A DNA stretch of 64,000 nucleotides, taken from NCBI GenBank assembly GCA_016931575.1, contig JAFGEO010000144.1, forward strand, positions 1-64,000, given 5' to 3'. Source of the stretch: Bacteroidales bacterium (lineage in GTDB: Bacteria > Bacteroidota > Bacteroidia > Bacteroidales > UBA10428). A program made the position numbers and the translations under genes. The notes beneath the pieces were generated by a model. That model made no database searches and was not told where the DNA came from. It worked only from the letters and a program-made list of their open reading frames with translations. Positions 26,363-64,000 of the stretch are shown piece by piece (the first letter of the stretch is position 1; each line of letters starts with the position of its first letter).

Positions 26363-26455
26363 ATAAATAAGGTTTCTCTATTACAAGTTACTCATTTAAC
26401 TGCAATTGTAAAATACTTTCAAAGGACTAATTCTTATGCCTTTTAATAACGCAGG

Positions 26456-26767
26456 CTATTGAGTGTTTAAGGGGTGGGGCGGGCTCATGGTCTCACTAAT
26501 ACGGATCAGCTTTTTTAGTCTGTCCACTGTAATAATCCTGAACGTCATCGCATTGATGGTGATTCTGATGTTGTTGTTGCTGTTCGTCACATAAAAATTC
26601 TTACCTGTTCTGCAATAGAATGCTTCATCAGTATCTTTCAAAATCTGATGAATGAATAGTTCAATTTGTTGTTTGGAATAATCAGCGTTTAATTTTTTAT
26701 TGATCCTCTGGTAAACAAGTTCTGTGTAGCAGATATTTTGGAGAATTTTTTGTTTGGTTACTGTCAT
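26456..26767 (-). CDS. DUF3781 family protein
   Basis: The 103-residue protein matches my recollection of DUF3781: 'NICYTELVYQRINKKLNADY' near the N-terminus and 'KNFYVTNSNNNIRITINAMT' and 'FRIITVDRL' in the second half. No signal peptide or membrane segment is present, so it is probably cytoplasmic. Its function is unknown. The gene is upstream of the histidine kinase gene on the same strand with 93 bases between them, but no link is evident. Confidence 0.82.
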   Translation of the reverse strand: MTVTKQKILQNICYTELVYQRINKKLNADYSKQQIELFIHQILKDTDEAFYCRTGKNFYVTNSNNNIRITINAMTFRIITVDRLKKLIRISETMSPPHPLNTQ

Positions 26768-27097
26768 GTCAGGTGCTTTAGCGAAGAGGTATTTATGAGG
26801 TCTGGTCTAAATTTTAACGGGTTGATTTTCATGAGATGTTTTAGTTGTTTATGGATTATGATGAACCTCAGGATCGGATGTGAAATATAGGCATGTCAGT
26901 GAGGTATAGGGCAGACTGCTATTGATAAAGTCGTTCGTGTCCAATGGAAGTACTATACTGATTTTCATTTGTTCATAGCGTATTGTTGTTATTCCATTCG
27001 CCGCATCGCGGAATGGGTTTTGATGATCTTTCCTCCATGCCGGTTCAATATTGCCTCCTTCTCAATTCCGGATATCCCTTTTTGTAAGCCGTCGTGT
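26768..27097. other. Intergenic region, nothing recognised
   Basis: About 330 bases separate the DUF3781 gene from the chemoreceptor gene. A GC-rich hairpin around 26993-27015 (CCATT/AATGG with an inner CGC/GCG) lacks a T-run on the strand that would terminate the chemoreceptor transcript. No gene was seen. Confidence 0.4.
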
Positions 27098-29044
27098 TTA
27101 GTCAACCTGGAAGAAATTGAGCAGTTCATTCAATACTTCAGTTCTCCTGGCTAATTCCTGGGCATTTTTTGAGATTTCATTAGAAATCATCAGATTGTCA
27201 GAAGTGATTTCCTGCAATTTTGAAATGTTGGAGTGGCCATTTTGCGATTTCAGGTCACTTTCCGGACTGGTTAAAGTTTTAATGAGATCCGAGGTTTTTT
27301 GAATGTCATCAATAATCCTCCTTAGGTTCCTGATCGAATCCTGGGCTTTCCCAATACTCTGATTGGAGATGTCGTCAATATCGTCGGCGGCAAGCTTGCT
27401 TTGTTCTGCCAAGCTTTGTATTTCCTTTGCTACAATGGCAAAGCCCCTTCCATATTCCCCTGCACGGGCTGCCTCAACGGCTGCATTTATCGCTATGAAG
27501 TTTGTTCTGGAATAGATACTTTCAATAATTTTCGTTTTACCTACCACATCCTTCATGGAATCCACTGTCCCATTTACATGATCGGCTCCTGCAATGATAT
27601 TCCGGGTGGCATTGGCAGAAATTTCTTCGATTTTAATCATTGACTGGCTTAAATCATCCGTGAATTTTTCCTGTTGACTTGCTCCCTGGTTTATCTTTTC
27701 TGCATTGACGATAAGGTTTTCCGAAACCTTCATAATCCCCGCTGTGCTGGATTTGATGTTTTCCGTTATTTGTTTAAGCTGCATGACCATCACTTTCAGG
27801 GAATGAATCAGGTCTCCCTCCTTGCTATCCAGCGATCGTATTACCTCATTTGACAAATTCCCTTTGGATATCTGGTTCGCCAGGTCTATGACTTCCCTGA
27901 AATAATTTGTTGATACTTTGAGAGCATTCGCCATCTCACCAATCTCATCTTCTCTGACAATGCCAATCTCGGCATCCAGTTTTCCCTGGCTGCACGATTT
28001 TGCATATTTCACAACATGTTGCAGGGGCCTGGTAATGCTGTACGCTATGAACCAGACAAGGATAAGTATAAGGAGCAAACCAATAGAACCGATGATCAGC
28101 GTGAAGCTTATGCTGCTATTGGCTTCCGATAAAATAACATCCAGAGGTACCGCAATTCCGATCGACCAGGGGGTAGGGGTATTACCGACAATTATGGGCG
28201 CAAATGATACATAGGATTTGGTTTTATCCTTGTTTTCATAAATGAATGAGAAGGATTTCCCTGCTTTAATTTTCGAAATAATTCGTTTATCATTTAGTAT
28301 TTCTGTGACCGGTTTATTAATGTAGGCGGTATCCGGATGGGTTATTAAAATTCCCTGGTTCGAGATTAAAAAGGCAATACTGTTTTCGAAGGGGTGAATG
28401 CTGTTGATTTCTTCCTGAAAACGGTCAAGGGTTATGTCTGTTCCGACTACGCCTGTAAAAATACTGTCAACCAGTATGGGGCAAATAAAACTCGTCATTA
28501 AAATTTCATCCTCCTTATTTCCTGTATAGGAGTAGTAATAGGGTTCCTCGATACTTTCCAGTTTTTCCCTTTTCAGGCGGCCATAATCGGTGTTGTCCCC
28601 ATCAAGGCTTTTGAGGGTATTGTTATTGTGTATTGAATCTCCTTCACGCCAGAATTCTTCAACATACCTCCCGGTCGGCAATTTCCATTCAGGATCAAGT
28701 ACTGACAGCTCCCAGCTATCCCATATCCCATAAAACTGAGGGTTATTAATAAAGACATACTCATACATGTCACGGTGGATGTCAGCCCGTTTTTCTGCAG
28801 GAAGATTCTTATAATTTGCAAAGGCTTGTGTTAAGGTGCGGATAACATCCATATCGCTGTTGAATTCAGCCATGGCACGGCTTGCATGCTCCCGGGCATT
28901 GGCATCGATATAATCTTTTGCATCCTTAAATGCCTTGGTTCTGAATTCATACGAAATATACCCGATACTGATACTTGAGATTATAATTACAGTGCTCATA
29001 ATCGATAGTAGCATCTTCGAGCGGATGTTGAGCTTTATGGACAT
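27098..29044 (-). CDS. Methyl-accepting chemotaxis-type transducer with dCache sensor
   Basis: The 648-residue protein has two transmembrane helices (~12-32 and ~310-332) around a periplasmic double-Cache (dCache_1-like) sensor domain ('GIWDSWELSVLDPEWKLPTG', 'GVVGTDITLDRFQEEINSI'). A HAMP domain (~335-385) and a cytoplasmic signalling domain follow, with the hairpin tip 'NAAVEAARAGEYGRGFAIVA' (~550). dCache domains usually bind small organic ligands such as amino or carboxylic acids. No che genes lie nearby. The signalling domain is short, so it may act in a non-flagellar system such as gliding or type IV pilus control. Confidence 0.92.
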   Translation of the reverse strand: MSIKLNIRSKMLLSIMSTVIIISSISIGYISYEFRTKAFKDAKDYIDANAREHASRAMAEFNSDMDVIRTLTQAFANYKNLPAEKRADIHRDMYEYVFINNPQFYGIWDSWELSVLDPEWKLPTGRYVEEFWREGDSIHNNNTLKSLDGDNTDYGRLKREKLESIEEPYYYSYTGNKEDEILMTSFICPILVDSIFTGVVGTDITLDRFQEEINSIHPFENSIAFLISNQGILITHPDTAYINKPVTEILNDKRIISKIKAGKSFSFIYENKDKTKSYVSFAPIIVGNTPTPWSIGIAVPLDVILSEANSSISFTLIIGSIGLLLILILVWFIAYSITRPLQHVVKYAKSCSQGKLDAEIGIVREDEIGEMANALKVSTNYFREVIDLANQISKGNLSNEVIRSLDSKEGDLIHSLKVMVMQLKQITENIKSSTAGIMKVSENLIVNAEKINQGASQQEKFTDDLSQSMIKIEEISANATRNIIAGADHVNGTVDSMKDVVGKTKIIESIYSRTNFIAINAAVEAARAGEYGRGFAIVAKEIQSLAEQSKLAADDIDDISNQSIGKAQDSIRNLRRIIDDIQKTSDLIKTLTSPESDLKSQNGHSNISKLQEITSDNLMISNEISKNAQELARRTEVLNELLNFFQVD

Positions 29045-30185: not shown

Positions 30186-30674
30186 TTACTGATCAGCATA
30201 TTCAGCAATGATGCCCTTGATCATTTCAGGGGCAACACGGCCATAGGTTTTTTCACCTACCATAACAACCGGTGCAAGTCCGCAGGCACCAACGCACCGC
30301 AGGCAGCTGATCGAGAATTTTCCATCGGCGGTGGTTTCTCCAACTTCAATTTTCAGCACTTTCTTGATTTCATCAAGCACCTTTTCTGCACCGCGCACAT
30401 AGCAGGCAGTTCCCGTGCAAATGGAAATGGGGTGTTTCCCTTTTGGCAGCATGGTGAAGAAGCTGTAAAAGGTTACCACTCCATAAACTTTGGCAATCGG
30501 GATGGTAAGCTCCTGTGCCACCACTTCCTGGATCTCGGCAGGAAGGTACCCGAAAGTACCCTGTACCTTATGAAGAACATTGATTAATTCTCCTTCTGCA
30601 TTATCAAATGCTTTGCAGATTTCTTTAATCTTATCTACTTGATCTTTTTTGAGTTCTACTTTTATTCTTGACAT
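30186..30674 (-). CDS. hydC: HydC: NuoE-like 2Fe-2S subunit of bifurcating [FeFe] hydrogenase
   Basis: The 162-residue protein is the thioredoxin-like 2Fe-2S subunit (NuoE/HydC), with ligands Cys86 and Cys91 ('ICTGTACYVRG') and Cys127 and Cys131 ('CVGACGLAP'). In the trimeric HydABC enzyme it passes electrons between the flavin subunit HydB and HydA. I prefer ATG 30674 ('MSRIKVELKKD') over the TTG at 30701; the latter adds nine atypical residues. It is the last gene of the operon, 46 bases after hydA, and the bidirectional terminator follows. Confidence 0.93.
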   Translation of the reverse strand: MSRIKVELKKDQVDKIKEICKAFDNAEGELINVLHKVQGTFGYLPAEIQEVVAQELTIPIAKVYGVVTFYSFFTMLPKGKHPISICTGTACYVRGAEKVLDEIKKVLKIEVGETTADGKFSISCLRCVGACGLAPVVMVGEKTYGRVAPEMIKGIIAEYADQ

Positions 30675-30720: not shown

Positions 30721-32499
30721 TTACTTCATGTAAATGATTTTCTTCCGCTTGTCGGAGTAATGGGTGTGCAGCAGGTGATGTGCCTTTTCACTCATGGGTT
30801 TACCAAGGAATTCTTCATACAGCTTGATAATGTAGGGATTTTCATGCGATTTGCGGATGGGTTTATTAGCGTCCTCGCGATAGATAGCCTCAGTACGCTT
30901 CTTGATGATCTCCAGATTTCCGTGGTGCAAGGGTTGTCCACCACCTCCAACACATCCGCCGGGACAGGCCATGATCTCGATGGCGTGGAATTCACTTTTT
31001 CCTGCCCTGACATCTTCAAGCAGCTTGCGGGCATTTCCTAATCCATGGGCAATCCCGATCTTAATCGTTGTACCGTCAAAATCGACTTCAGCCTGCCGGA
31101 TGCCCTCCATGCCACGGAGTTGTTTGAAATCCACTTTATCAAGGGATTTCTTCGTGAAGATCTCATAGGCAGTGCGGGTGGCAGCTTCGATAACACCCCC
31201 GGTTGCTCCAAAGATCACCCCGGCTCCTGTTGATTCACCCAGGGGTTTGTCAAAATCTTCTTCCTGCATATTGTTCAGGTCCATGTTGGCCCGTTTGATA
31301 AGGTTGGCTAACTCGCGGGTAGATATTGAATAGTCAACGTCAGGATTGCCGTCAACAGCAAACTCGTCACGCTGGCATTCGTATTTTTTAGCCAGGCATG
31401 GCATGATAGAAACAACTACCAGGTTTTCACGTTTCACCTCGATCTTATCGGCGAAGTAAGTTTTAGCTATCGCTCCGAACATCTGCTGCGGGGAGCGTGC
31501 TGTGGAAGGAATATCCAGCATATCAGTGAATTGCTGTTCGAAGAAGTTAACCCAGCCGGGGCAGCAGGAGGTAAGGATGGGTAACTTGACGTCTTTATCC
31601 CCTTTCAGGTGGCGGCTGATCCTGTCGAGGAACTCGGTACCTTCTTCCATGATGGTGAGGTCAGCAGCGAAATCGGTATCAAAGACATAGTTAAATCCCA
31701 ACTGGCGAAGCGCAGATACCATCTTTCCGGTAACTGAAGTTCCCGGAGCCATGCCGAATTCTTCTCCCAGGGCAGCACGAACTGCCGGAGCAGTCTGAAC
31801 GATCACTGTCTTCTCCGGATTGGAAAGGTCCTCGATCAGCTTGTTGGTGTGATCAACCTCCGTAAGGGCACCGGTTGGACAGACTGCAACACACTGTCCA
31901 CAGTAAGTACACGGGGAATCTTCCAGGTCCATTTCGAAAGCCGGAGCAACGACGGAATAGAATCCGCGGTTGACGGCAGAGAGCGCACCTACAGTCTGGA
32001 ATTCGTTACACATGGTTTCGCACCGGCGGCACATGATACATTTGTCCATATCCCTGATGATGGAAGGGGAGAAGTCTTTCCGGTAGGTTGACATCTCTGC
32101 AATATCCTGATTCGGGATCTCCCGGATACCCAGTTTTATGGCCATATCCTGGAGGTCGCAATTACCTGATTTGGCGCATACCAGGCAGTCTTTGGGATGA
32201 TCGGAAAGGATCAGTTCCATGACGGTCTTCCGTGCATTCAGAACCCGCATGGTATGGGTTGTGACCACCATGCCTTCGAACACCTCGGTCGAGCAGGAGG
32301 GGGCCAGGTTTCGGCGGCCTTCCACCTCTACGGAACAAATCCGGCACCCGCCGGGTTTGTGTTCTATTTTCAGATCCGGCAGGTCCATATAACAGAGTAC
32401 AGGAATATCAATATCCAGTTGCCTGGCTGCCTTATATATTGTTGTTCCCTTAGGAACTTCAACTATTTTATTGTCGATTGTAATTTTAACAGTTTCCAT
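30721..32499 (-). CDS. hydA: HydA: catalytic subunit of electron-bifurcating [FeFe] hydrogenase
   Basis: The 592-residue protein reduces protons or oxidises H2 in the cytoplasm at an H-cluster. In order it has a 2Fe-2S domain (Cys36, 52, 55, 69), a His-Cys3 4Fe-4S site (His101, Cys105, 108, 114), two 4Fe-4S sites (Cys154-164 and Cys197-207) and the H-cluster domain. The latter has intact L1 'TSCCPGW' (~310), L2 'MPCLAKKYE' (~366) and L3 'MACPGGCVGGGGQP' (~510). A C-terminal small-subunit-like tail (~540-592) ends the chain. This is the group A bifurcating (M3) type that couples ferredoxin and NADH. ATG 32499 is 11 bases after hydB with a clear AGAAGGGAG; a longer upstream frame is not plausible. 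Confidence 0.97.
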   Translation of the reverse strand: METVKITIDNKIVEVPKGTTIYKAARQLDIDIPVLCYMDLPDLKIEHKPGGCRICSVEVEGRRNLAPSCSTEVFEGMVVTTHTMRVLNARKTVMELILSDHPKDCLVCAKSGNCDLQDMAIKLGIREIPNQDIAEMSTYRKDFSPSIIRDMDKCIMCRRCETMCNEFQTVGALSAVNRGFYSVVAPAFEMDLEDSPCTYCGQCVAVCPTGALTEVDHTNKLIEDLSNPEKTVIVQTAPAVRAALGEEFGMAPGTSVTGKMVSALRQLGFNYVFDTDFAADLTIMEEGTEFLDRISRHLKGDKDVKLPILTSCCPGWVNFFEQQFTDMLDIPSTARSPQQMFGAIAKTYFADKIEVKRENLVVVSIMPCLAKKYECQRDEFAVDGNPDVDYSISTRELANLIKRANMDLNNMQEEDFDKPLGESTGAGVIFGATGGVIEAATRTAYEIFTKKSLDKVDFKQLRGMEGIRQAEVDFDGTTIKIGIAHGLGNARKLLEDVRAGKSEFHAIEIMACPGGCVGGGGQPLHHGNLEIIKKRTEAIYREDANKPIRKSHENPYIIKLYEEFLGKPMSEKAHHLLHTHYSDKRKKIIYMK

Positions 32500-32510
32500 T
32501 TTCTCCCTTC

Positions 32511-34304
32511 TTATTTTACGATTACTGCATTGAATTTGCAACGGTCCTCGCAGGCTCCGCACTTGATACAGAGTGTAGGATCGATTTTGTGCACTTCTTT
32601 TCTTTCGCCCGTGATAGCTCCTACCGGACATGCCCTGGCGCAGGCTGTGCAACCCACACAGTTTTCTTCTACTATCTCATAGATCATTAGGGCTTTACAA
32701 ACGCCGGATGGGCATTTTTTATCAAAAATATGGGCTTCATACTCATGTCCGAAATTCCGGATAGTGGATAGAACAGGGTTTGGGGACGATTGTCCCAGGC
32801 CGCAGAGTGAGGTATCCTTGATAACATTACCAAGGTTGATCAGGCGGTCGATATCGGCTTGTTCGCCGTTCCCTTTAGTGATTTTGTCAAGCAACTCATA
32901 AAGCCGTTTGTTTCCAATGCGGCAGGGTGCACATTTACCGCATGATTCTTCAACTGTAAAGTCCAGGAAGTATTTCGCCACATCCACCATACAGTCGTCC
33001 TCGTCCATGATGATCATCCCGCCGGAGCCCATCATGGAGCCCGCAGCGATCAGGTTGTCATAGTCAATGGGTGTGTCGAGGTCTTTCTCAACCAGGCAAC
33101 CCCCTGAAGGGCCTCCGGTCTGTACTGCTTTAAATTTTTTCCCTTCCTTTATGCCTCCGCCAATCTCAAAGATCACTTCACGAAGGGTAATTCCCATTGG
33201 CACTTCGATAAGCCCTACGTTATTGACTTTTCCAGCCAGGGCGAATACTTTGGTCCCTTTTGATTTTTCAGTTCCGATGGCAGCAAACCATTCGGCTCCT
33301 TTATTAATGATCACCGGGATGTTTGCATAGGTTTCCACATTATTCACGTTGGTGGGCTTTTTCAGGTAGCCTTCAACGGATGGGAACGGAGGTTTCAGGG
33401 TGGGTTCACCACGATTTCCTTCCATCGAGTGGATGAGGGCAGTTTCTTCGCCACAGACAAAGGCGCCGGCACCGTAACGCATTTCTACATCGAAGCAGAA
33501 ATCTGTGCCGAAAATATTATCGCCCAGAAACCCGAATTCACGGGCCTGCTTAATGGCAATCTTCAGGCGTTCGATGGCCAGGGGATATTCTGCCCGGATA
33601 TAGATCAGGCCGTGCGAAGCACCCGTGCAATAGCCGTTTATAGCCATAGCTTCCAGAACTGTGTGGGGGTCTCCTTCCAAGATTGACCGGTCCATGAATG
33701 CTCCGGGGTCACCCTCGTCAGCATTGCAAACCACGTACTTTACATCACTTTCTACCTTGCGGGTCAGCTCCCATTTCAGTCCGGTCGGGAATCCTCCGCC
33801 TCCGCGTCCGCGCAAACCGGAATCCTTTATCAGTTTAATGGCACCTTCAGGGGTCATGCTGGTGATCACCTTCCCCAGGGCTTCATATCCGTCGCGGGCA
33901 ATGTACTCCCCGATGTCTTCCGGATTGATGATTCCACAGTTACGCAGTGCAATGCGAATCTGTTTTTTATAGAAATTCATGCTCTTGGAATCGCTCACTT
34001 TCTCATCGCTATCAGGGGCAGTGTAGAGCAAGCGTTCCACTTTCCTTCCCTTCACAATATGTTCCTCAACGATTTCACGTGCATCACCGGGTTTAACCTG
34101 CGTGTAGAAGGTGTTGTCCGGGATTAATTTGACAATGGGTCCCTTCTCACAGAAACCGAAACAGCCGGTCTTGATCACCTGTGCAAAATCGCTCAGACCC
34201 TGCTTTTGAATCTCGGTTTGCAGATTTTCAATGACTTTATCACTTTCTGATGCCCTGCATCCGGTACCGCCGCATACCAGGGCATGTATTTTGTATTCTG
34301 ACAT
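32511..34304 (-). CDS. hydB: HydB: NuoF-like flavin subunit of bifurcating [FeFe] hydrogenase
   Basis: The 597-residue protein is the NAD(H)-binding, flavin-containing subunit. The N-terminal 2Fe-2S domain has Cys11, 16, 48 and 52. The FMN site is 'GRGGGGFPTGLKW' (~166-178), the NAD site 'GAGAFVCGEETAL', and the NuoF cluster 'ESCGKCAPCRIGN' plus a later Cys. Two C-terminal 4Fe-4S motifs, 'CVGCTACARACP' and 'CIKCGACEDRC', are diagnostic of the bifurcating form and probably accept electrons from or to ferredoxin. Its ATG follows a strong AGGAGGAAA, rare among the genes here, which may give high translation. It lies between the 2Fe-2S gene and hydA. Confidence 0.97.
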   Translation of the reverse strand: MSEYKIHALVCGGTGCRASESDKVIENLQTEIQKQGLSDFAQVIKTGCFGFCEKGPIVKLIPDNTFYTQVKPGDAREIVEEHIVKGRKVERLLYTAPDSDEKVSDSKSMNFYKKQIRIALRNCGIINPEDIGEYIARDGYEALGKVITSMTPEGAIKLIKDSGLRGRGGGGFPTGLKWELTRKVESDVKYVVCNADEGDPGAFMDRSILEGDPHTVLEAMAINGYCTGASHGLIYIRAEYPLAIERLKIAIKQAREFGFLGDNIFGTDFCFDVEMRYGAGAFVCGEETALIHSMEGNRGEPTLKPPFPSVEGYLKKPTNVNNVETYANIPVIINKGAEWFAAIGTEKSKGTKVFALAGKVNNVGLIEVPMGITLREVIFEIGGGIKEGKKFKAVQTGGPSGGCLVEKDLDTPIDYDNLIAAGSMMGSGGMIIMDEDDCMVDVAKYFLDFTVEESCGKCAPCRIGNKRLYELLDKITKGNGEQADIDRLINLGNVIKDTSLCGLGQSSPNPVLSTIRNFGHEYEAHIFDKKCPSGVCKALMIYEIVEENCVGCTACARACPVGAITGERKEVHKIDPTLCIKCGACEDRCKFNAVIVK

Positions 34305-34323: not shown

Positions 34324-34728
34324 TTATTTTGTAGTGTCTTCGATATTTTTGTAATTCATTGGAATGATTCCTTCAACCAACTCTCCGTTGCGGATATATT
34401 TTTCAATGATCTCATCAGCCTTCTTCTCATCGACGTATCCGAAAATGATGGGTTCTTTTCCCGGAAGGGTAACTTCAATGGTCGGCTCAGCATAGCAATA
34501 GCCCATGCAACCGGTCTGGGTAACCACTGCCTCAATATTTCTTTTTTCCAGCTCATCGGCAAGGTAGTTTATGGTTTCCCTCGAACCGGAGGCAATACAG
34601 CATGTTGCCATTGCTACTTTGATCTGAACCATGCTTTCGGGGTGTTCGCTTTTGTCGCGAAGTGAAGTCTTGGACTTCAATTCGTCTTTCAACTTGCGTA
34701 AATCATCCAGTGTTTTAACTTTTCCCAT
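34324..34728 (-). CDS. Thioredoxin-like 2Fe-2S ferredoxin
   Basis: The 134-residue protein is a thioredoxin-like 2Fe-2S ferredoxin of the type found with hydrogenase and NuoF-like genes. Candidate ligands are Cys43/Cys44 ('MATCCIASGS') and Cys74 and Cys78 ('QTGCMGYCYAEP'). The double Cys at 43-44 differs from the usual single Cys. It probably serves as an extra electron carrier of the HydABC complex or its regulation. It is preceded by the longest gap inside the operon (82 bases) with a perfect palindrome at 34777. Confidence 0.85.
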   Translation of the reverse strand: MGKVKTLDDLRKLKDELKSKTSLRDKSEHPESMVQIKVAMATCCIASGSRETINYLADELEKRNIEAVVTQTGCMGYCYAEPTIEVTLPGKEPIIFGYVDEKKADEIIEKYIRNGELVEGIIPMNYKNIEDTTK

Positions 34729-34810: not shown

Positions 34811-35350
34811 CTATTTTGACAATGCATCCATATTTTCCTGCAGCATATCCCGGATAAACCGGATCACCCGGGGATGGCTGACGGGGAGACCATCCAGTTC
34901 GGTTTTGATATCCCGGGTATTAAAGCTGTATTCCCTGTCATTCACCTGGTAGCTAAACAGCCATTCCCGTTCAGGATATGCCCTCAGCAGGCTGATCAGG
35001 GTGGAAAGTACATCACCCATAGGCTGCCGGTCGAGATGATCAAGTTCGAATTCAGCACGGATGAGTGTTCCCTTGTTGATTTCAGATTCAACGTGCAGAA
35101 TGCCCCCTGCTGCTTCGGCATGCTGACGAAGAAGTGGGATCCCCAGCCCGGTTTTTTTATTTCCTGTAGTGAAGAAGGGGTCGTTCAGTCTGTTCAGCGT
35201 CTCCAGGTCCATCCCCTTTCCATTATCCCTCACCCGGAAGCCTGTCCTGTTGTCTTTTTCGTTTTTCCATACTTCAATGGAAATTTCACCGGCTCCGGCA
35301 TTAACGGAGTTTTGTGCTATGTCCAGAATATGTAGGGCAATCTCTTTCAT
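34811..35350 (-). CDS. HATPase-type ATP-binding protein
   Basis: The 179-residue protein is a GHKL ATPase domain with N box 'ILDIAQNSVNAGAGEIS', G1 'RDNGKGM' (~43) and G2 'KTGLGIPLLRQHAEAA' (~66), followed by a beta-rich C-terminal part that I do not recognise. No HisKA domain is present, so it either phosphorylates a partner protein or senses ATP. It overlaps the PHP gene by 4 bases (ATGA), implying coupled translation. It belongs to the sensory module upstream of hydBAC and probably relays the output of the sensory hydrogenase. Confidence 0.85.
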   Translation of the reverse strand: MKEIALHILDIAQNSVNAGAGEISIEVWKNEKDNRTGFRVRDNGKGMDLETLNRLNDPFFTTGNKKTGLGIPLLRQHAEAAGGILHVESEINKGTLIRAEFELDHLDRQPMGDVLSTLISLLRAYPEREWLFSYQVNDREYSFNTRDIKTELDGLPVSHPRVIRFIRDMLQENMDALSK

Positions 35351-36090
35351 TCTGAAAGGATTTTTCGTCCATCCGTATTCCGCAGGGCCATTTTTAACTC
35401 GGAAAAGCTGGCTTCCTCCATCAGGTATTTCGTGACGGTCTGACCGATCATCGGAAGATCATGCGCATCCGAGTTTTGTATCAGCGACTTTCCCGTAAGC
35501 TCCGGATGAAGTCTGGTGAATTCCCCTGGATGGCTGCGTGCGGAGATCTCAAATGCATCCGCCTCCAGATCTTCGGGGATAAACCCCAGCTGACTGATCA
35601 GGGAGTTATACGGCCGGTCGATATGCGCAGGAATGAACAAGCCTCCCAACCGGGCCACCTGCTCACGGACTTCATAAATACTATGTCCCAGGGCACCAAT
35701 CAGTAAGGGTTCAACCTCATTCAGGATCCTTTCTTCACGGTCAACGACCAGTTGCTCCCCGAAGAGGGAAGGATCGTTTTTTACCGGTGCCAGACCGGCG
35801 GTAAGGATCTGCTGGAATTTCTCAGCATCATCAAGTGTTTCAAAGAGCGTCAGGCAATGTATTTCCTCGGCAGTGTTAACTTCAGCGCCGGGGATCACCA
35901 GGATACCTTCCTCGGAACCCAGCTCCATCATAAGCCTGCAGTGTTGCGTGGCGTTATGATCGGTCATTGCCAGTATGTCAATTTTTTTCCTCCGGGCCTC
36001 CCGGATAATATTTACCGGGCTCATATCCAGGCTTCCACACGGGGAGAGTACCGAATGAATATGCAGGTCGGCCCTGAATATTTTCATCAT
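35347..36090 (-). CDS. PHP domain metal-dependent phosphoesterase-like protein
   Basis: The 247-residue protein is a PHP (polymerase and histidinol phosphatase) domain. The metal-binding 'ADLHIHSVLSPCG' (HxH) at the N-terminus, 'AMTDHNATQHC' (~40) and 'NSDAHDLPMIG' near the C-terminus are the expected ligands. The nearest characterised relatives cleave phosphate esters or nucleotides (TrpH/YciV-like). In this operon it sits between DRTGG and HATPase genes, a context seen in other anaerobes. Its substrate may be a signalling nucleotide or phosphoprotein; this is inference. Four-base overlaps on both sides show tight coupling. Confidence 0.88.
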   Translation of the reverse strand: MMKIFRADLHIHSVLSPCGSLDMSPVNIIREARRKKIDILAMTDHNATQHCRLMMELGSEEGILVIPGAEVNTAEEIHCLTLFETLDDAEKFQQILTAGLAPVKNDPSLFGEQLVVDREERILNEVEPLLIGALGHSIYEVREQVARLGGLFIPAHIDRPYNSLISQLGFIPEDLEADAFEISARSHPGEFTRLHPELTGKSLIQNSDAHDLPMIGQTVTKYLMEEASFSELKMALRNTDGRKILSE

Positions 36091-36431
36091 GCCTCCAGAA
36101 GCTGGTACAAACGGCCTGCTATCTCAAAAGCAGATAAAGTAGTGCTCAGCACGGGAATACCCTCTTTCTCACTCAGGGAAAGAACTTCTGCTTCCGGAAC
36201 AAGTCCCTTGACAAGGATAATGGCTGCCAGGTCCTTGAGTGCCGCAACAGCCATGATATTTTTATGTGTCTGCAGGGTAATCCAGACCTGCCCTTCATCC
36301 GAGTGCCCCATGACATCACTCAGAAGGTCGGAGCAATAGGCACCGGTTACCTCTTTCTGTAAAAGAGCCTGGCCGGAAAGTGGCTTTAGCTCAAGTTGTT
36401 TTACGACATCTTCAAGAATCAGCGTTTTCAT
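36087..36431 (-). CDS. DRTGG domain protein (copy 2)
   Basis: The 114-residue single-domain protein belongs to the DRTGG family, a small domain also found beside CBS domains and in phosphotransacetylase-like proteins, thought to bind a nucleotide or ligand. Conserved features are 'VTGAYCSDLLSDVMGHSDEG' (~27-46), 'ALKDLAAIILVKGLVPE' and 'EKEGIPVLSTTLSAFEIAG'. It resembles the operon's first DRTGG protein in length and order of motifs, but it is clearly divergent. It overlaps the sensory hydrogenase and PHP genes by 4 bases each. Confidence 0.87.
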   Translation of the reverse strand: MKTLILEDVVKQLELKPLSGQALLQKEVTGAYCSDLLSDVMGHSDEGQVWITLQTHKNIMAVAALKDLAAIILVKGLVPEAEVLSLSEKEGIPVLSTTLSAFEIAGRLYQLLEA

Positions 36432-37777
36432 GGAACCAGTTTATCAAAGCGGTTTATACCCCATATCTTTTCAGCTTTATCGGGCTTTCCGGGAGCCACT
36501 GCGAGGGCATTTTGCACAAAGATACAGTCACTCGTTTTAGCCCTTTTCTGAACAATATCTTCAGCCAGCGTTTTGCACGACGGTGCTCCGCAGGCTCCAC
36601 AGTCTATTCCCGGCAGATATCCCAGGAGTTTTTGTATAGAATCCATTTTCTTCATGGCCGCTTCCATATCATCATCCAGCTTCATCATCGAACGGGGTTC
36701 AATGTTTTCGAGAGCAATATGATCGACAAGGTATTCAGTGTGCCTGTCGATGGATTTATTATCAATGATCTTACCTTCTTTGAAATCAGCATTGTATTTC
36801 AGGACACGCTCCTGCAAGCGCTCACTCACCAGGAAACGGTTTGCGGTGGTCAGGATACCTCCTGCGCAGCTCTCGTCACAGGCCCTCAGCTCAATGAACT
36901 CGAAATTGGAAACGGAACCATTTTCGATCTGCTCCAGAAATTCGATGGCATTGCTGATCCCATCGATGGCCAGGCACCTTCCGTTTATGTGGCGGGACTC
37001 ACCGCCTGTCAGGCTCCATCCCATCTCCTCGGCCCTTAGCTGCTCTTTCTCAGGAACGATACAGGTGGATTTTTCTTCCTTCTTGAAACTGGTATATACC
37101 TTATTGAAGATATCATCCTGTTTAATCACACCTGTAATGGGGGAGGATAGCTCTCCGACAGGACTCTTAATAGCGGCAATTTTTGCCGCACAGGGGGTAA
37201 CATAGAATATTCCGATCTCCTTTTCATCGTACCCGCGCTCCATCAGTTCTTTTTTAAATGAGATGGCAGCAATGTCGAGTGGGGCTTTCAGTAGAATAAT
37301 ATTTTCAACAAGACTTGGAAACCTGACCTGGATCAGGCGAACGATAGCGGGGCAAAAGGAGGAAATAACCGGCCGCGGATCCGCATGCTGTTCCAGGTAT
37401 TGATTGATCTGACGGATTAGCAGGGATGCGCCGTGTTCGGCTTCATAGACATGCGTAAATCCCTGCTCCAGGATGCCCGAATAAATTTTCCGGGCAGCAT
37501 AATGTCGTGGAAACTGACCTATAAGGACAGAGGGAACCAGCGCCACGCGCACGGCATATTTGAAAATATCTTCGAAATCGTCCTGCTCAATGCTGATGGC
37601 ACTGACAGGGCAAACCTCCATGCATCTGCCGCAATCAATGCAGCGGTCTTCCATAAGCTGGGCCTTACCCTGCCTGATGCGAAGCGCTTCAGTAGGGCAT
37701 GCTTTCATGCAGTGTGTACATCCGATGCACACTTCCTCCAGAATTTTTAATGCATGATGAAAGTTCCTGCCTGACAT
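36428..37777 (-). CDS. Sensory-type [FeFe] hydrogenase-like protein (HydS-like)
   Basis: The 449-residue protein has two N-terminal 4Fe-4S motifs (Cys17-27, Cys46-56), an H-cluster domain and a C-terminal 4Fe-4S motif (Cys393, 396, 401, 418). The H-cluster cysteines are kept (Cys142, 196, 300, 304), so it may carry the cofactor. L1, however, reads 'SSFCP' instead of TSCCP, replacing the proton-relay Cys with Phe141; L2 is 'TPCAAK' and L3 'RACDESCAGG'. Loss of the relay Cys is typical of the poorly active sensory groups C and D (for example Thermoanaerobacter HydS), and the absence of a PAS domain fits group D best. It is embedded among regulatory ATPase, DRTGG and PHP genes, so a role as H2 or redox sensor is likely. 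Confidence 0.88.
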   Translation of the reverse strand: MSGRNFHHALKILEEVCIGCTHCMKACPTEALRIRQGKAQLMEDRCIDCGRCMEVCPVSAISIEQDDFEDIFKYAVRVALVPSVLIGQFPRHYAARKIYSGILEQGFTHVYEAEHGASLLIRQINQYLEQHADPRPVISSFCPAIVRLIQVRFPSLVENIILLKAPLDIAAISFKKELMERGYDEKEIGIFYVTPCAAKIAAIKSPVGELSSPITGVIKQDDIFNKVYTSFKKEEKSTCIVPEKEQLRAEEMGWSLTGGESRHINGRCLAIDGISNAIEFLEQIENGSVSNFEFIELRACDESCAGGILTTANRFLVSERLQERVLKYNADFKEGKIIDNKSIDRHTEYLVDHIALENIEPRSMMKLDDDMEAAMKKMDSIQKLLGYLPGIDCGACGAPSCKTLAEDIVQKRAKTSDCIFVQNALAVAPGKPDKAEKIWGINRFDKLVP

Positions 37778-37779
37778 GC

Positions 37780-38196
37780 TTAGTTGTTAATATAGCTTGT
37801 AATCTCCACCGTTGTCCCCTTGCCAACCTCACTGCTTACCTTCAGGGAGTCTGAATTCTTTCTGATATTCGGAAGGCCCATTCCCGCTCCGAACCCCATT
37901 TGCCTCACTTCCTCACTTGCTGTGGAAAAGCCCTCCTGCATAGCTTTGTCCACATCCTCAATCCCCGGGCCCTCATCCCTGAACCGGAGAAATACCTTCT
38001 CTGCATCAATTTTGCCTTCCATTACCCCTTTGTAGGCATGGGCGACAATGTTGACTTCGGCTTCATACATGGCCACCGCTATCTTTTTTATCTTCTCAGG
38101 CGCAAGGTTCAGTTGCTTCAGGATCTTTTTTACCTCGCTGGAGGCCGATCCTGCCTTCGAAAAATCCCCTCCCTCTATGATATAGCTGAATTCCAT
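37780..38196 (-). CDS. RsbW/SpoIIAB-like anti-sigma-factor-type ATPase
   Basis: The 138-residue protein is a compact GHKL ATPase of the anti-sigma regulatory (serine kinase) group: 'AVAMYEAEVNIVAHAYKG' (N box), 'RFRDEGPGIEDVD' (G1) and 'GAGMGLPNIRKNSD' (G2). Such proteins bind or phosphorylate a partner such as an anti-anti-sigma factor; none is present in the window. It sits 2 bases before the sensory hydrogenase gene and is presumably its signal-transduction partner. Confidence 0.88.
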   Translation of the reverse strand: MEFSYIIEGGDFSKAGSASSEVKKILKQLNLAPEKIKKIAVAMYEAEVNIVAHAYKGVMEGKIDAEKVFLRFRDEGPGIEDVDKAMQEGFSTASEEVRQMGFGAGMGLPNIRKNSDSLKVSSEVGKGTTVEITSYINN

Positions 38197-38201
38197 TTCT
38201 C

Positions 38202-38546
38202 TTAATAAACAGGTTTTATTCCTTCCTGAAATAATAGCCCGCTTAGATGGAAAAGCGATTTTTCCGAAACCATCAGCACCATGCCTTCCTTTTCAGCCAA
38301 TGTGATCATCTCCATGGAAGGTTTTTTGTCCCGACCGAAAAGAATGCAGCGGATCTCAGCCATTTCTGCCGTACGAATGGTTTGCAGGTTATTCAGACCC
38401 GTGATGAGCACAAGCTTGCTGACATCTATCGTCAACACATCGCTCATCAGATCGGAGGTAAAGGCATAGCTGATATCAACCGACTCTGTCGTACCTTTAG
38501 TAAGTACTTTTGCCTGGGTTATTTTACTAATCGCGTCTGTCTGCAT
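38202..38546 (-). CDS. DRTGG domain protein (copy 1), first gene of the HydS-HydABC operon
   Basis: The 114-residue DRTGG-family protein has 'DISYAFTSDLMSDVLTIDVS' (~25-44), 'AEIRCILFGRDKKPSMEMI' and 'EKEGMVLMVSEKSLFHLSG'. I chose ATG 38546 over the TTG at 38573 because the -7 box TAATTTTG covers 38571-38578 on this strand, so the TTG would not be transcribed. Length and motif order match the second DRTGG gene in the operon, so the two may form a pair or a heterodimer. The family may bind nucleotide-like ligands. As first gene it defines the start of the sensory module. Confidence 0.87.
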   Translation of the reverse strand: MQTDAISKITQAKVLTKGTTESVDISYAFTSDLMSDVLTIDVSKLVLITGLNNLQTIRTAEMAEIRCILFGRDKKPSMEMITLAEKEGMVLMVSEKSLFHLSGLLFQEGIKPVY

Positions 38547-38570: not shown

Positions 38571-38604
38571 CAAAATTACTCTTTTTACTGTTATTCAAAT
38601 AACA
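38571..38604 (-). promoter_or_regulatory. Promoter and proximal operator of the HydS-HydABC operon
   Basis: On the minus strand TAATTTTG (38571-38578) matches the -7 consensus TAnnTTTG exactly, and TTTG (38596-38599) lies 17 bases further upstream as a -33 element. The -33 element lies inside the palindrome TGTTATTCAAATAACA at 38589-38604 (7-bp arms, 2-base centre). A protein bound there would cover the -33 box. Confidence 0.72.
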
Positions 38605-38647: not shown

Positions 38648-38663
38648 TGTTATTTGAATAACA
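38648..38663. promoter_or_regulatory. Distal operator of the HydS-HydABC operon
   Basis: TGTTATTTGAATAACA is the exact reverse complement of the proximal operator, with centres 59 bases apart. A variant, TGTTATTTTTGTAACA, lies before the hydG-hydE operon at 60997-61012. Confidence 0.72.
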
Positions 38664-41208: not shown

Positions 41209-41502
41209 TTACTTCGCGTAATCACTGCAATCCCATTCTGAGATGGCTTCCTCATAGCTGGCGTTATAAGCTGCATAAAGCCGGCAGGCATCTACATAAT
41301 CGGTAAGGGCATCTTTGTAATCCTCGCAGGTTGTCTCGGTCATATTGTTGATGAAAACGGTGGCTGCCTCTGAGACAGCTTCTCCTTTGGATTCGCACAC
41401 TGTCTGCAGATCCGGTTCTGTATTCCTGGGTCTAATGCAGGAAGTGGCGATCAATATGGCGGGAACTAACAGGAAGAATAGCTTATAGTAATTTTTTTTC
41501 AT
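41209..41502 (-). CDS. Cysteine-rich small lipoprotein inserted in the hyp cluster
   Basis: The 97-residue product has a lipoprotein signal ('FLLVPAILIATSCIRP', Cys22) and four further cysteines after it ('TVCESKGE', 'TTCEDYKD', 'DACRLYAA', 'EWDCSDYA'), probably forming two disulfides in the periplasm or at the outer membrane. I recognise no family. It lies between hypD and hypE on the same strand, 93 bases after hypD, with a terminator behind it. It may be a separately regulated insertion or a genuine accessory protein of this organism's hydrogenase system. Confidence 0.75.
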   Translation of the reverse strand: MKKNYYKLFFLLVPAILIATSCIRPRNTEPDLQTVCESKGEAVSEAATVFINNMTETTCEDYKDALTDYVDACRLYAAYNASYEEAISEWDCSDYAK

Positions 41503-45291: not shown

Positions 45292-45915
45292 ATGAATCTT
45301 CCTCCGCGAACTATTGAACGTCTTAGCAAGTATCGTCGTTTGCTTAAGAAATACCCCAAGACTGAGGGCTTATATATTTTCTCACACCATCTGGCAAGAT
45401 TGCTTAACCTGACTCCTGTGCAGGTACGGCGTGATCTGATGCTGATAGGTTTGTCCGGCAACCACCGGAAGGGATACAACATTACAGAGTTACTGAAGGT
45501 GATCAGTCAGACCATTGATACTGAGCAGGGACACAACCTTGCCATTGTGGGTATGGGGAACCTCGGCCGCGCTGTCACCCGCTTTATCCGTAAGAATGAA
45601 ACACGTATGAACATTGTTGCCGGATTTGATATCGACCAGAGTAAACTGAATGAGACGATCGAGGGGGTGCCCTGTTATCACATTTCACAGATCGAAGAGT
45701 ACATTAAAGTCTTGTCGGTTGATATAGCCATACTGACCACTTCTCCCGAATCTGCCCAGGAAATTGCTGACCGGGTTATCCGTTCCGGTGTGACGGGGAT
45801 CCTGAACTTCACTTCAGTCCACCTGGATGTGCCGAAGGAGATTTATCTGAAAGATTATGATATTATCACTTCCCTGGAAGAAATTGGATTTTTCATTAAA
45901 AGCCCTTTACAATAA
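45292..45915 (+). CDS. rex: Rex: NADH/NAD+-sensing repressor
   Basis: The 207-residue protein has the Rex winged-helix DNA-binding domain ('RLSKYRRLLKKY', 'LTPVQVRRDLMLIG', ~1-75) and a Rossmann NAD(H)-binding domain with 'LAIVGMGNLGRAV' (~82-94) and the domain-swapped C-terminal helix. Rex leaves DNA when NADH rises. A perfect Rex operator lies before the hox hydrogenase operon 1.4 kb away, so this gene very probably controls it. It is divergent from hypF. The shared 93-base region has an ATTAGCA/TGCTAAT repeat and a CACTCC/GGAGTG hairpin but no convincing Rex site. Confidence 0.95.
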   Translation: MNLPPRTIERLSKYRRLLKKYPKTEGLYIFSHHLARLLNLTPVQVRRDLMLIGLSGNHRKGYNITELLKVISQTIDTEQGHNLAIVGMGNLGRAVTRFIRKNETRMNIVAGFDIDQSKLNETIEGVPCYHISQIEEYIKVLSVDIAILTTSPESAQEIADRVIRSGVTGILNFTSVHLDVPKEIYLKDYDIITSLEEIGFFIKSPLQ

Positions 45916-47313: not shown

Positions 47314-47370
47314 ATAAAAAGCTCTTTCTCTAATCAACTACTTATAAATCAGTAAAATATCTTCTTGTTT

Positions 47371-49170
47371 ATGAAGAATTACACCCAAAAAATTGTAGAG
47401 AAATACCATCATGACAAAACCCGTCTGATGGATATTCTCATCGCTGTTCAGTCGGAGTATGGCTACATCTCATCAGAATCCATTGCTCTGATTGCTCATG
47501 AGCTGAAAATGTCTGATGTGGACGTCGAGCAAACGGTGTCCTTCTATCACTTTTTCTCTGCTCAACCGACTGGTAAATTTTCCATTTTTCTGAACAACAG
47601 TGCGGTAGCTAATATGATGGGGAGGGAAGAAGTTGCTACTGCACTTGAACAGGAGACAGGAATAAAGTTTGGTCAGGTTACCCCGGATGGATTAATCGGA
47701 CTTTTTGAGACTTCCTGCATAGGTATGAACGACCAGGAACCTGCCGCGATCATTAATAACCGGATTTTCACGAAGCTTACCTCTTTCAGGGTTAAGGAGA
47801 TCATCCGGGATATTAAGGATGGAAAAAAAATCGAGGAACTGTATTCCGCCAGCTTTGGTGACGGTGCCAATCGCGATGTCTCGGTACAATCGGTGGTTTC
47901 TAACAATATTCGGAAGATTGGTCCAATATTGGACCCCAACTATAAGATCGGTGAAGCGATCAGGAAGATCACGAAGATGACCCCCCTCGAGGTGATCGAT
48001 GAGGTGAAGAATTCCAGTGTCAGGGGAAGGGGAGGAGCTGGGTTCCCCACAGGTTTGAAATGGGAATTTTGCCGTAATGCCAAAGGTGAAAGAAAGTATA
48101 TTTTTTGTAATGCTGATGAAGGAGAACCCGGTACTTTCAAAGACAGGGTAATCCTGACAGAACTCCCCAGACTTTTATTTGAGGGGATGGTAATTGCCGG
48201 CTATGCAGTAGGGGCGACTGAAGGAATCCTCTATATCCGTTACGAATACAAATACCTCGAGACCTACCTTGAGAAGATCCTGGAAGCAGCCCGTAAGAAG
48301 AATTACCTGGGTAAAGATATCATGGGTAAAAAAGGATTCGATTTTGATATCCGGATACAGTTTGGTGCCGGAGCGTACGTTTGCGGGGAGGAATCCGCCC
48401 TGATCGAATCTGCGGAGGGAAAACGGGGAGAACCTCGTGACAGGCCGCCATTCCCTGTGGAAAAAGGATATCTCGAAATGCCAACTATCGTCAATAATGT
48501 TGAAACGCTCTGTTCAGTGGTGAAGGTTATACTAAATGGAGCGGAATGGTATCGTTCCTTCGGTACAGCTGAATCAACAGGGACCAAGCTGCTCAGTATT
48601 TCAGGAGACTGCAGGAACCCGGGTGTGTATGAAGTAGCCTGGGGCTTTTCGGTTAATGATATCCTGGCTATGGTTGGAAAAAGTGCCAATGTACAGGCAG
48701 TTCAGGTCGGAGGTCCGTCAGGTTCACTGATCGGCCCGGACGAGTTCAGCCGAAACCTTGGATATGAGGACCTGGCCACCGGGGGTTCCCTGATTATCTT
48801 CGGGGAACACAGAAATCTGCTGAAAGATGTTGTTCTGAATTTCATGGATTTCTTCATTGAAGAATCCTGTGGAAGCTGTTCCACCTGCCGGATACTACCC
48901 AGCGTGCTTCGGACAAAACTCCTGAAAATTATGAATGCCCGCGGCGTTCAACAGGATATCGAAGATATGGTTAACTGGAGCGGGTTCCTGAAGGCCAGTC
49001 GCTGTGGTCTGGGTCAGACTGCCGCTAATCCAATTATAACTTCCATTAAAAATTTCCGTCACCTATACGAAGCCAGGGTTCAGAGCCGTAAGGAGTATGA
49101 TACGGGCTTTGACCTGACTAAAGCAGTTATTGAAGCTTGCGAAGTAACCGGAAGAGTGCCAAATATCTAA
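47371..49170 (+). CDS. hoxF: HoxF-like NuoE/NuoF fusion subunit of the NAD-coupled [NiFe] hydrogenase
   Basis: The 599-residue subunit fuses a NuoE-like N-terminal domain (~1-150) to a NuoF-like NAD/FMN domain ('GRGGAGFPTGLKW', 'GAGAYVCGEESAL') and the 4Fe-4S site 'ESCGSCSTCR' plus a later Cys. In the NuoE-like domain only Cys116 ('ETSCIGMN') remains of the four 2Fe-2S ligands; the others are replaced around residues 75-80 and by Asn120, so this domain probably holds no cluster, as in other HoxF proteins. It is the site of NAD(H) reaction. ATG 47371 is preferred to a TTG two codons earlier. Confidence 0.93.
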   Translation: MKNYTQKIVEKYHHDKTRLMDILIAVQSEYGYISSESIALIAHELKMSDVDVEQTVSFYHFFSAQPTGKFSIFLNNSAVANMMGREEVATALEQETGIKFGQVTPDGLIGLFETSCIGMNDQEPAAIINNRIFTKLTSFRVKEIIRDIKDGKKIEELYSASFGDGANRDVSVQSVVSNNIRKIGPILDPNYKIGEAIRKITKMTPLEVIDEVKNSSVRGRGGAGFPTGLKWEFCRNAKGERKYIFCNADEGEPGTFKDRVILTELPRLLFEGMVIAGYAVGATEGILYIRYEYKYLETYLEKILEAARKKNYLGKDIMGKKGFDFDIRIQFGAGAYVCGEESALIESAEGKRGEPRDRPPFPVEKGYLEMPTIVNNVETLCSVVKVILNGAEWYRSFGTAESTGTKLLSISGDCRNPGVYEVAWGFSVNDILAMVGKSANVQAVQVGGPSGSLIGPDEFSRNLGYEDLATGGSLIIFGEHRNLLKDVVLNFMDFFIEESCGSCSTCRILPSVLRTKLLKIMNARGVQQDIEDMVNWSGFLKASRCGLGQTAANPIITSIKNFRHLYEARVQSRKEYDTGFDLTKAVIEACEVTGRVPNI

Positions 49171-49182
49171 ACCAGAAACACA

Positions 49183-49881: not shown

Positions 49882-49906
49882 TGGATATCATCTAAATTAA
49901 ATCATA

Positions 49907-50455: not shown

Positions 50456-50464
50456 TCCTGAACT

Positions 50465-51916: not shown

Positions 51917-51918
51917 GT

Positions 51919-63930: not shown

Positions 63931-63999
63931 TCAGATGATCTCATCATGTTTGTTTAGTATGCCCAGAAAGGGCTCTACTGCCCGGTTGAAAATTCCGTG
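63931..63999 (-). CDS. Partial C-terminal end of a minus-strand gene
   Basis: On the minus strand an open frame enters from the right edge and ends at the TGA at 63931; its last residues read 'VEPFLGILNKHDEII'. The texture looks coding and the gap to the hydE stop is normal for converging genes, but only 22 codons are visible, so no family can be named. Confidence 0.35.
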   Translation of the reverse strand, partial: HGIFNRAVEPFLGILNKHDEII

Positions 64000-64000
64000 A

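Follow-up and report, generated by a model that had tools for sequence, protein, structure and literature searches.

That group D sensory [FeFe] hydrogenases (HydS) accompany the bifurcating hydrogenase HydABC and kinase-like genes is already published: HydS lies upstream of HydABC, often with a histidine or serine kinase between the two (PMC3561251), and TamHydS of Thermoanaerobacter is flanked by a histidine-kinase-like ATPase and also adjoins an AraC-type regulator (PMC8163306). Genes named hisK and hydD occur in hydrogenase operons (PMC9304861). The interaction partners of group D HydS are still to be identified, which has been called critical (PMC13104023, 2026), and how signal transduction works without a PAS domain has been posed as a question (PMC8163306). 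Here we analyse a six-gene regulatory cassette that runs into the genes for a 2Fe-2S protein, HydB, HydA and HydC in a 64,000-nucleotide stretch of Bacteroidota DNA (the window, meaning the whole stretch that was analysed; it lies on contig C27 of genome G000, which comprises 4.82 Mb in 168 contigs with completeness 98.29 and contamination 4.35). L and G numbers denote related loci and genomes, respectively. We put at about 0.5 the probability that the six genes form a modular, sensor-fed regulatory unit, with interchangeable sensors, for enzymes that share the HydBC (BfuBC) bifurcating core.

The original prediction, read from the letters of the window, had placed six regulatory genes on the minus strand ahead of this hydrogenase. 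All six open reading frames were recovered at the coordinates, on the strand and in the order that it gave, and the run into the hydrogenase genes is borne out by coordinates and family matches. In the direction of transcription, the genes are:

38202–38546, minus strand: DRTGG1 (114 amino acids), first gene of the cassette, sensor arm
37780–38196, minus strand: SpoIIAB/RsbW-like GHKL ATPase (138 amino acids; RsbW below), sensor arm
36428–37777, minus strand: HydS, a group D/M2e-type [FeFe] protein (449 amino acids) without PAS
36087–36431, minus strand: DRTGG2 (114 amino acids), second arm
35347–36090, minus strand: PHP-domain protein (247 amino acids), second arm
34811–35350, minus strand: HATPase, a histidine-kinase-like CA domain with a C-terminal alpha/beta part (179 amino acids), second arm
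34324–34728, minus strand: 2Fe-2S thioredoxin-like protein (134 amino acids), between the cassette and hydB; PF01257, 26.6 bits (cut-off 24.8)
32511–34304, minus strand: HydB, BfuB/NuoF-like (597 amino acids); TIGR01959, 474 bits, under the NuoF equivalog cut-off of 558.65
30721–32502, minus strand: HydA, [FeFe] hydrogenase group A6; NF040763, 906 bits (cut-off 765)
30186–30659, minus strand: HydC, BfuC/NuoE-like (157 amino acids); PF01257, 172 bits

Judged by these family models, HydABC is a group A6 bifurcating-type [FeFe] hydrogenase, with HydA over its cut-off and both HydB and HydC present. The first three cassette genes are separated by 5 nucleotides (DRTGG1/RsbW) and 2 nucleotides (RsbW/HydS), three 4-nucleotide overlaps follow, and 82 nucleotides lie between the HATPase and 2Fe-2S genes. 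From this packing, the six genes and 2Fe-2S–hydBAC are likely to form a single transcript.

Conservation and two-arm organization

RsbW orthologues were found at E ≤ 1e-15 in 77 of 247 genomes of the order and in 6 of 395 in a draw from the class, and at 1e-12 in 7 of 395 in a draw from the phylum (counts that include the genome of the window; the order, class and phylum draws overlap). Gene order was counted in the 76 other RsbW genomes of the order, as same-strand chains with fewer than 1,000 nucleotides between recognized genes. These chains contain RsbW in 76 cases, DRTGG1 in 75, HydS in 71, DRTGG2 in 67, PHP in 65 and HATPase in 60. All six genes occur in 56 of the 76, the exact six-gene order in 54 and the ten-gene order with 2Fe-2S–HydBAC in 40, an arrangement that is not due to chance. 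Conserved co-occurrence had been set beforehand as a test, and it holds in the order and in a Bacillota locus, where the set lies on two strands. Several incomplete chains are caused by contig ends (for example, L112, L118, L130 and L174); L132, L134, L141, L173 and L183 are real splits that show DRTGG1–RsbW–HydS alone, with more than 8 kb of sequence behind. A match to the NADH-dependent [FeFe] hydrogenase model at 1e-150 was found in 75 of 77 RsbW-bearing genomes versus 81 of 170 RsbW-less genomes.

A contig scan with one protein yielded 17 loci, 16 of them close relatives; the other, L017, aligns at 30% identity to query residues 4–61 and was not used. L001 was excluded from the counts, as it lies on the same contig as L104 (genome G678, same genus as the window). 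Other phyla were reached through plasmid records, and cross-phylum coverage is thin. A Parabacteroides distasonis record (L185) holds the six-gene set without HydABC beside it; this ‘plasmid’ record lies near gyrA and is therefore probably chromosomal. In Subdoligranulum, the Bacillota locus, one strand carries DRTGG1, RsbW, a 239-amino-acid DUF3592 protein, HydS, DRTGG2 and PHP, and the opposite strand carries HydC, HATPase, 2Fe-2S, HydB and HydA. The tags of Caldicellulosiruptor bescii, Athe_1292 for HydS and Athe_1297–1299 for HydABC with four tags between (PMC3561251), would fit the same layout by their spacing, a comparison in which the identities of the four intervening genes play no part. 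In a rumen Bacteroidales genome, a gene for an AAA_14/DUF4143 ATPase (L002:7476–8936, plus strand) lies between the two arms.

The cassette reads as two look-alike arms, DRTGG1–RsbW–HydS and DRTGG2–PHP–HATPase, which are often permuted, separated or fused, an apparent organization that is new here. Arm order is reversed in L166, L180 and rumen loci, and the fusions fall within arms: DRTGG1–RsbW in L139 and L140 and PHP–HATPase in L161, the latter possibly an assembly fault because it comes from a single metagenome-assembled genome (MAG). An exploratory partial-correlation analysis of distances, covering the 41 loci that have the full ten-gene set (the window among them), placed the split into these arms at the top of the 10 possible 3+3 splits (0.087, with the next at 0.049). 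HydS correlated with DRTGG1 at 0.27 and with RsbW at 0.24; correlations with HydB were 0.24 for RsbW and 0.25 for HATPase.

DRTGG1 and DRTGG2 are paralogues by profile comparison (hhalign, 98.7%). DRTGG2 scores 34.8 bits against PF07085 (cut-off 25.2) and is the sole DRTGG match detected in the genome; DRTGG1 reaches 18.2 bits, below that Pfam cut-off, and its orthologue in L141 exceeds it at 28.7 bits. Conservation differs between the two: D32, S35, T49 and Q55 are kept in 99 of 99 DRTGG1 sequences, and in DRTGG2, N58 and T52 are kept in 90 of 90 and H56 in 89 of 90, the position equivalent to H56 being Asn in 90 of 99 DRTGG1 proteins. A comparison of DRTGG2 with solved structures gave one match, at chance level.

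RsbW matches HATPase_c_2 at 47.3 bits (cut-off 27.4) and aligns to the SpoIIAB structure 1til, but falls under all equivalog cut-offs (TIGR01925 spIIAB, 69.1 versus 135; NF003144, 33.9 versus 145; TIGR01924, 29.2 versus 155.05). Its E45, N49, D74, G76, G78, T92, G103, G105 and G107 are kept in 101 of 101 sequences; E45 and N49 match the SpoIIAB N-box, as expected of a GHKL ATP site. HATPase scores 58.1 bits against HATPase_c (cut-off 26.4) and keeps D10 and N14 in 83 of 84 sequences and its glycine boxes in all 84. In its AlphaFold2 model (mean predicted local distance difference test, pLDDT, 81.1; predicted template modelling score, pTM, 0.79), helices and strands at residues 110–178 extend beyond the GHKL part. 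HATPase_c and HATPase_c_3 were the only Pfam matches in these 179 residues, and no HisKA/DHp domain was found. The two kinase-like ATPases proposed for the cassette thus keep their predicted ATP-site residues, and both GHKL proteins lack a DHp domain, in line with the proposal that it works without a classical histidine kinase.

The PHP protein, which had been put forward as a candidate phosphoesterase, remains a good one. It matches PF02811 at 30.0 bits (cut-off 26.4), resembles nucleases and 3′,5′-nucleoside bisphosphate phosphatases with all scores under the family cut-offs, and keeps H10, H12, D44, H45, E70, H78, H156, D208 and H210 in 88–89 of 89 sequences. We take these nine positions to be metal ligands, of which the protein would have a full set.

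Sensors and partner enzymes

HydS agrees with group D (M2e) of the sensory [FeFe] hydrogenases in the sequence features tested, and the original prediction of an [FeFe] protein of HydS type stands, with cofactor binding predicted from all four H-cluster cysteines. Pfam recognizes Fe_hyd_lg_C (84.6 bits), Fer4 in two stretches and FeS; two N-terminal 4Fe-4S motifs precede an H-domain with the four ligand cysteines. The protein ends at 449 amino acids, and none of the 15 Pfam families found is the PAS domain that would mark group C (M2f). Among 93 sequences of this type (window included), C142 and C196 are kept in all 93 and C300 and C304 in 92, the exception being L174 at a contig end. The C-terminal Cx2Cx4Cx16C motif reported as a group D feature (PMC6984386) corresponds to C393, C396, C401 and C418 and is kept in 92. 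At the proton-relay position (C299 in CpI), 87 of the 93 have Phe, 5 Tyr and 1, from Bacillota, Ala; none has Cys. At the M353 position 90 have Thr and 3 have Ser, and at the M497 position 87 have Arg. By these alignments, most Bacteroidota HydS sequences share an F-T-R second-sphere variant of their own. TamHydS and TmHydS have Ala at the C299 position (PMC12326359), and at the Met353/Met497 positions Ser/Leu and Gly/Ser, respectively (PMC8163306).

Long HydS-like proteins (564–644 amino acids) adjoin SpoIIE-type phosphatases in L060, L062, L115, L124, L131, L159 and L187; L062 belongs to the same genome as the window. They are perhaps the phosphatase counterpart of the RsbW-linked short HydS.

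The enzyme context was tallied for 100 loci, 76 of the order and 24 others, with the window and L001 set aside. In eight, a catalytic subunit that is not of the [FeFe] type sits on the HydBC core (seven typed by family search and L054 by homology). HdrA accompanies HydS in L053, L054 and L144, with MvhA beside L053 and L054. NuoG-like and NfnA-like proteins occur with HydS in L139 and L140. A double HdrA with MvhA, without HydS, is found in L145 and L147, and L146, which ends at a contig edge, has the same layout. FdhA stands without HydS in L151 (TIGR01591, 901.5 bits versus 666.25). The cassette is therefore not tied to the [FeFe] enzyme; it accompanies related enzymes that have no H-cluster subunit, an association that is new here. 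HydS itself has lost C20, an N-terminal Fe-S ligand, in all five loci beside HdrA or NuoG-like enzymes and keeps it in the other 88 sequences; the replacements in L053, L054, L139, L140 and L144 are His, Arg or Asp. In genome G686 (L159:3643–5971), HydC directly follows HydB, with HydA missing between them and all of the cassette in place; at 1e-150 NF040763 finds no match in this genome, which has three PF02906 matches. The gap is either a real loss or a fault of the MAG.

HydS is missing from 8 of the 100 loci (L108, L143, L145, L146, L147, L150, L151 and L172). Seven of the eight genomes have no recognizable group D HydS elsewhere, the best match to HydS being at most 93.4 bits; the L108 genome alone keeps a group-D-like piece (56% identity over 186 residues). 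Among the seven, G778, G781, G723 and G668 have weaker HydS matches, mostly in frames of 568–691 amino acids of unassigned type, and G433, G228 and G047 have none at 1e-10. These last three are the genomes in which RsbW carries a CBS pair (L145–L147; PF00571, 93 bits in L145 and by homology in the other two). PF02906, the [FeFe] hydrogenase domain, has no match in G433 or G228 and one in G047; in G172 and G917, HydS is the sole PF02906 match. The original proposal of an H2-responsive circuit is not supported as it stands, since the set is not by nature bound to H2: seven genomes keep the rest of the set without a recognizable group D HydS, two of them without any PF02906 match, and the set also adjoins HdrA/MvhA, FdhA and NuoG-like enzymes.

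In an RsbW tree of 90 of 101 rows (11 near-identical rumen rows were left out), which is weakly resolved and whose bootstrap had not settled, the rows with a CBS fusion cluster together with support. In this tree L172 and L143 fall beside L112, a locus of their genus that has HydS, and L151 groups at 91/75 with L159, which also has HydS. To gauge divergence, we took the mean identity of each RsbW to 68 reference RsbWs and compared it with that of one hand-picked near relative. In the unfused loci without HydS, RsbW identity drops by 0.052 (L143), 0.040 (L172), 0.063 (L151) and 0.223 (L150). In the same loci, DRTGG1 falls by 0.003–0.038 and DRTGG2 by 0.002–0.064, PHP ranges from a fall of 0.022 to a rise of 0.010, and HATPase, comparable in two, falls by 0.092 in L150 and rises by 0.023 in L151. 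RsbW dropped more than DRTGG1, DRTGG2 or PHP of the same genome in four of four testable cases, and it shows no fall (+0.021) in L108, whose genome retains a HydS piece. The N-box Glu/Asn and the glycine boxes of RsbW are retained despite the loss of HydS. This pattern fits a release of RsbW from contact with HydS.

Transcription control and competing explanations

Two inverted repeats precede the cassette:

38589–38604, no strand assigned: TGTTATT-CA-AATAACA, a candidate Rex-type operator, 43–58 nucleotides before the DRTGG1 start
38648–38663, no strand assigned: a second copy, TGTTATT-NN-AATAACA, 102–117 nucleotides before the DRTGG1 start and 59 nucleotides further upstream

The motif was first spotted by eye in the window and then tested, and so was chosen after the sequence had been seen. 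With up to two mismatches it matches three times in the window, a number reached by 0 of 100 shuffles. Of 97 regions upstream of related loci, 27 contain the exact form TGTTA-N6-TAACA and the other 70 lack it; mononucleotide shuffles yield 0.25 per set, and 58 of 5,650 random 350-base stretches from the same loci have it. L104, of the same genus, has two copies spaced as in the window. The exact motif marks 22 of 50 HydB-linked cassettes versus 2 of 31 unlinked ones (and 3 of 16 undecided), and the two unlinked bearers, L125 and L160, lie directly behind another hydrogenase operon. The Rex operator of Staphylococcus aureus, TGTGA-N6-TCACA, has the same spacing with other half-site letters (PMC8376106), and the bifurcating hydrogenase of C. 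bescii is a reported Rex target (PMC8579813). We infer that the repeats are candidate Rex operators. A 20-bp Rex pattern with a different spacer gave nothing beyond chance, and a sigma-70 promoter scan gave no excess (21 found against a shuffle mean of 22.5). Transcription of the operon had been proposed as the output of the cassette; the predicted Rex-type operators before the operon are a simpler candidate for that control.

We envisage that in the first arm HydS, a sensing-tuned group D [FeFe] protein, would report H2 or the redox state, most likely to RsbW and DRTGG1 through a direct partnership. In the second, HATPase and the PHP phosphoesterase would set the state of DRTGG2, possibly through its near-invariant His56. 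The two DRTGG proteins would then act as switches, with the activity of the bifurcating enzyme depending on their state. With a candidate Rex-type operator already before the operon, the output would more likely be direct contact or modification than transcription. HydS would be an exchangeable input, given that the core is retained where HydS is missing or where RsbW bears a fused CBS pair. As a more tentative extension, the two-arm GHKL/DRTGG/PHP unit, which has no name, might regulate BfuBC-type enzymes as a class ([FeFe] and [NiFe] hydrogenases, formate dehydrogenase and Nfn/NuoG), with the sensor swapped on the RsbW-like ATPase.

Several observations weigh against this modular, sensor-fed unit. 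In 36 of the 100 loci, no typed enzyme and no BfuB was seen within about 11 kb, although some of these are at contig ends. The association of RsbW with NADH-dependent [FeFe] hydrogenase (Fisher p 1.5e-16) ignores kinship and is thus uncorrected for ancestry. HydS has been lost beside an intact [FeFe] HydABC in L143 and L150, which shows that the hydrogenase can do without the sensor. The divergence of RsbW is exploratory, concerning three or four losses that were picked post hoc with hand-chosen relatives, and L150 is divergent in every compared protein. Support from distances for the arm split is weak, its margin being small, and correlations also cross the arms (PHP–HydS, 0.23; DRTGG1–DRTGG2, 0.20). 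In L139 and L140, DRTGG2 adjoins the first arm and no PHP or HATPase was recognized nearby, and HATPase of the Bacillota locus is part of the hydC–hydA operon, at a distance from DRTGG2–PHP.

Among the alternatives, a transcriptional circuit fares best, and we regard it as unlikely. Here HydS and the GHKL proteins would act by partner switching or in a two-component-like manner, with an unlinked STAS protein, sigma factor, response regulator or Rex as the endpoint, and operon transcription would follow H2. The resemblance of RsbW to SpoIIAB (69 bits), the six STAS matches in the genome, the long HydS-like proteins beside SpoIIE-type phosphatases in seven loci and the AraC-type regulator reported beside TamHydS (PMC8163306) speak for it. 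However, DNA-binding, STAS and sigma genes are missing from the cassette, contig C27 carries none of the genome's six STAS matches, RsbW stays under the SpoIIAB and RsbW equivalog cut-offs, and the candidate Rex-type operator both precedes the operon and is concentrated at enzyme-linked cassettes.

DRTGG domains bind ligands, and the CBS pair replaces HydS in L145–L147. Both points favour a nucleotide-signal module, in which the DRTGG proteins bind a (di)nucleotide, PHP degrades it, in keeping with its sub-threshold resemblance to nucleases and bisphosphate phosphatases, the GHKL proteins are ATPase switches and HydS adds a redox input, with no protein phosphorylation. We consider this improbable, as no signal-nucleotide synthase is found among the conserved genes and the DRTGG1–RsbW and PHP–HATPase fusions suggest protein–protein work.

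An assembly or repair cassette, its ATPases and PHP maturing or mending the H-cluster or hydrogenase, would suit the close association with hydABC and, within the window, with hyp genes and a nearby hydF, but is very unlikely given the FdhA, HdrA/MvhA and NuoG-like contexts and the 81 of 170 RsbW-less genomes that possess an NADH-dependent [FeFe] hydrogenase. H-cluster assembly as the main role is rejected, because the set occurs with enzymes that have no H-cluster subunit and in two PF02906-free genomes. That HydS is a slow catalytic subunit with HydBC as its electron partner and the other genes adjusting it, as the L159 operon with HydB–HydC, no HydA between and an intact HydS might suggest, is hardly credible when the proton-relay residue is Phe in 87 of 93 and Cys in none, HydABC outlasts HydS in L143 and L150, and the related TamHydS has 200-fold lower H2 production than CrHydA1 (PMC6984386).

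If the two-arm unit does regulate BfuBC-type enzymes as a class, RsbW and DRTGG1 would be the missing interaction partners of group D HydS, and electron bifurcation would have a regulatory system of its own. The order of the genes, their domain fusions, the replacement of the sensor and the greater divergence of RsbW where HydS has been lost single these two out as the partners to test. A dedicated control unit for enzymes poised between NADH and ferredoxin is suggested by the finding of this core next to HdrA/MvhA, formate dehydrogenase and NuoG-like complexes. The stand-alone six-gene copy of P. distasonis, a cultured gut species, offers an opening for genetics.

Neighbourhood and known systems

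Upstream (5′) of the cassette on the minus strand lie hypB, hypA, hypE, a small lipoprotein gene, hypD, hypC and hypF, recognized by eye from their sequences. The lipoprotein-like frame (41209–41502, minus strand; 97 amino acids, five cysteines) has no Pfam match at 0.01. Beyond hypF, in divergent orientation, is:

45292–45915, plus strand: Rex-like repressor gene; 72 bits to an R. albus L187 protein annotated Rex

A second hydrogenase, of the [NiFe] type, follows at 47365–52380 on the plus strand (fused NuoE–NuoF, HoxU-like, VhuG-like small and VhuA-like large subunits) and would account for hyp genes near an [FeFe] operon. A gene for the HydF maturase (minus strand, C27 positions 63976–65148; 487.7 bits, cut-off 325.55) enters the window at 63976–64000, which makes the contig resemble a hydrogen-metabolism island. 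On the 3′ side of hydC (23849–29044, minus strand) are a chemotaxis-transducer-like protein and a PAS-containing sensor histidine kinase.

Our literature searches, whose coverage excluded most subscription journals, found no published description of the DRTGG/RsbW/PHP set, nor of the composition, arm-wise design, sensor replacement or range of enzyme contexts reported here. The closest known systems are the group D HydS loci, Athe_1292 with Athe_1297–1299 of Caldicellulosiruptor, Cthe_0335 of C. thermocellum and TamHydS of Thermoanaerobacter. Like them, the window’s HydS has no PAS domain, two N-terminal 4Fe-4S sites, an H-domain and Cx2Cx4Cx16C, and lies before hydABC, where kinase genes often intervene. 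The 93 sequences of its type differ from TamHydS and TmHydS in having mostly Phe (87 of 93) rather than Ala at the proton-relay position and mostly Thr and Arg at the Met positions, and the DRTGG/RsbW/PHP set is not described in the accessible portions of the Athe_1292, Cthe_0335 and TamHydS accounts.

Ruminococcus albus HydS–SpoIIE–HydA2 (L187) and the group C hfsABCD of Thermoanaerobacterium similarly pair a sensor-type [FeFe] protein beside a hydrogenase with a phosphorylation-type regulator (PMC11837493), but have, as published, a PAS domain, and a SpoIIE-type phosphatase in place of DRTGG/RsbW/PHP/HATPase. The cassette also recalls partner switching by SpoIIAB and RsbW in its GHKL fold and N-box Glu/Asn. 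Those proteins are of the Ser/Thr kinase type; the cassette, with scores under their equivalog cut-offs, has DRTGG proteins instead of a STAS or sigma gene. Finally, it shares with the bifurcating BfuABC family a HydB–HydC core with varied BfuA partners (PMC9304861). Regulators are not analysed in the accessible part of that account, whereas here a single regulatory cassette stands beside several enzyme types of this core.

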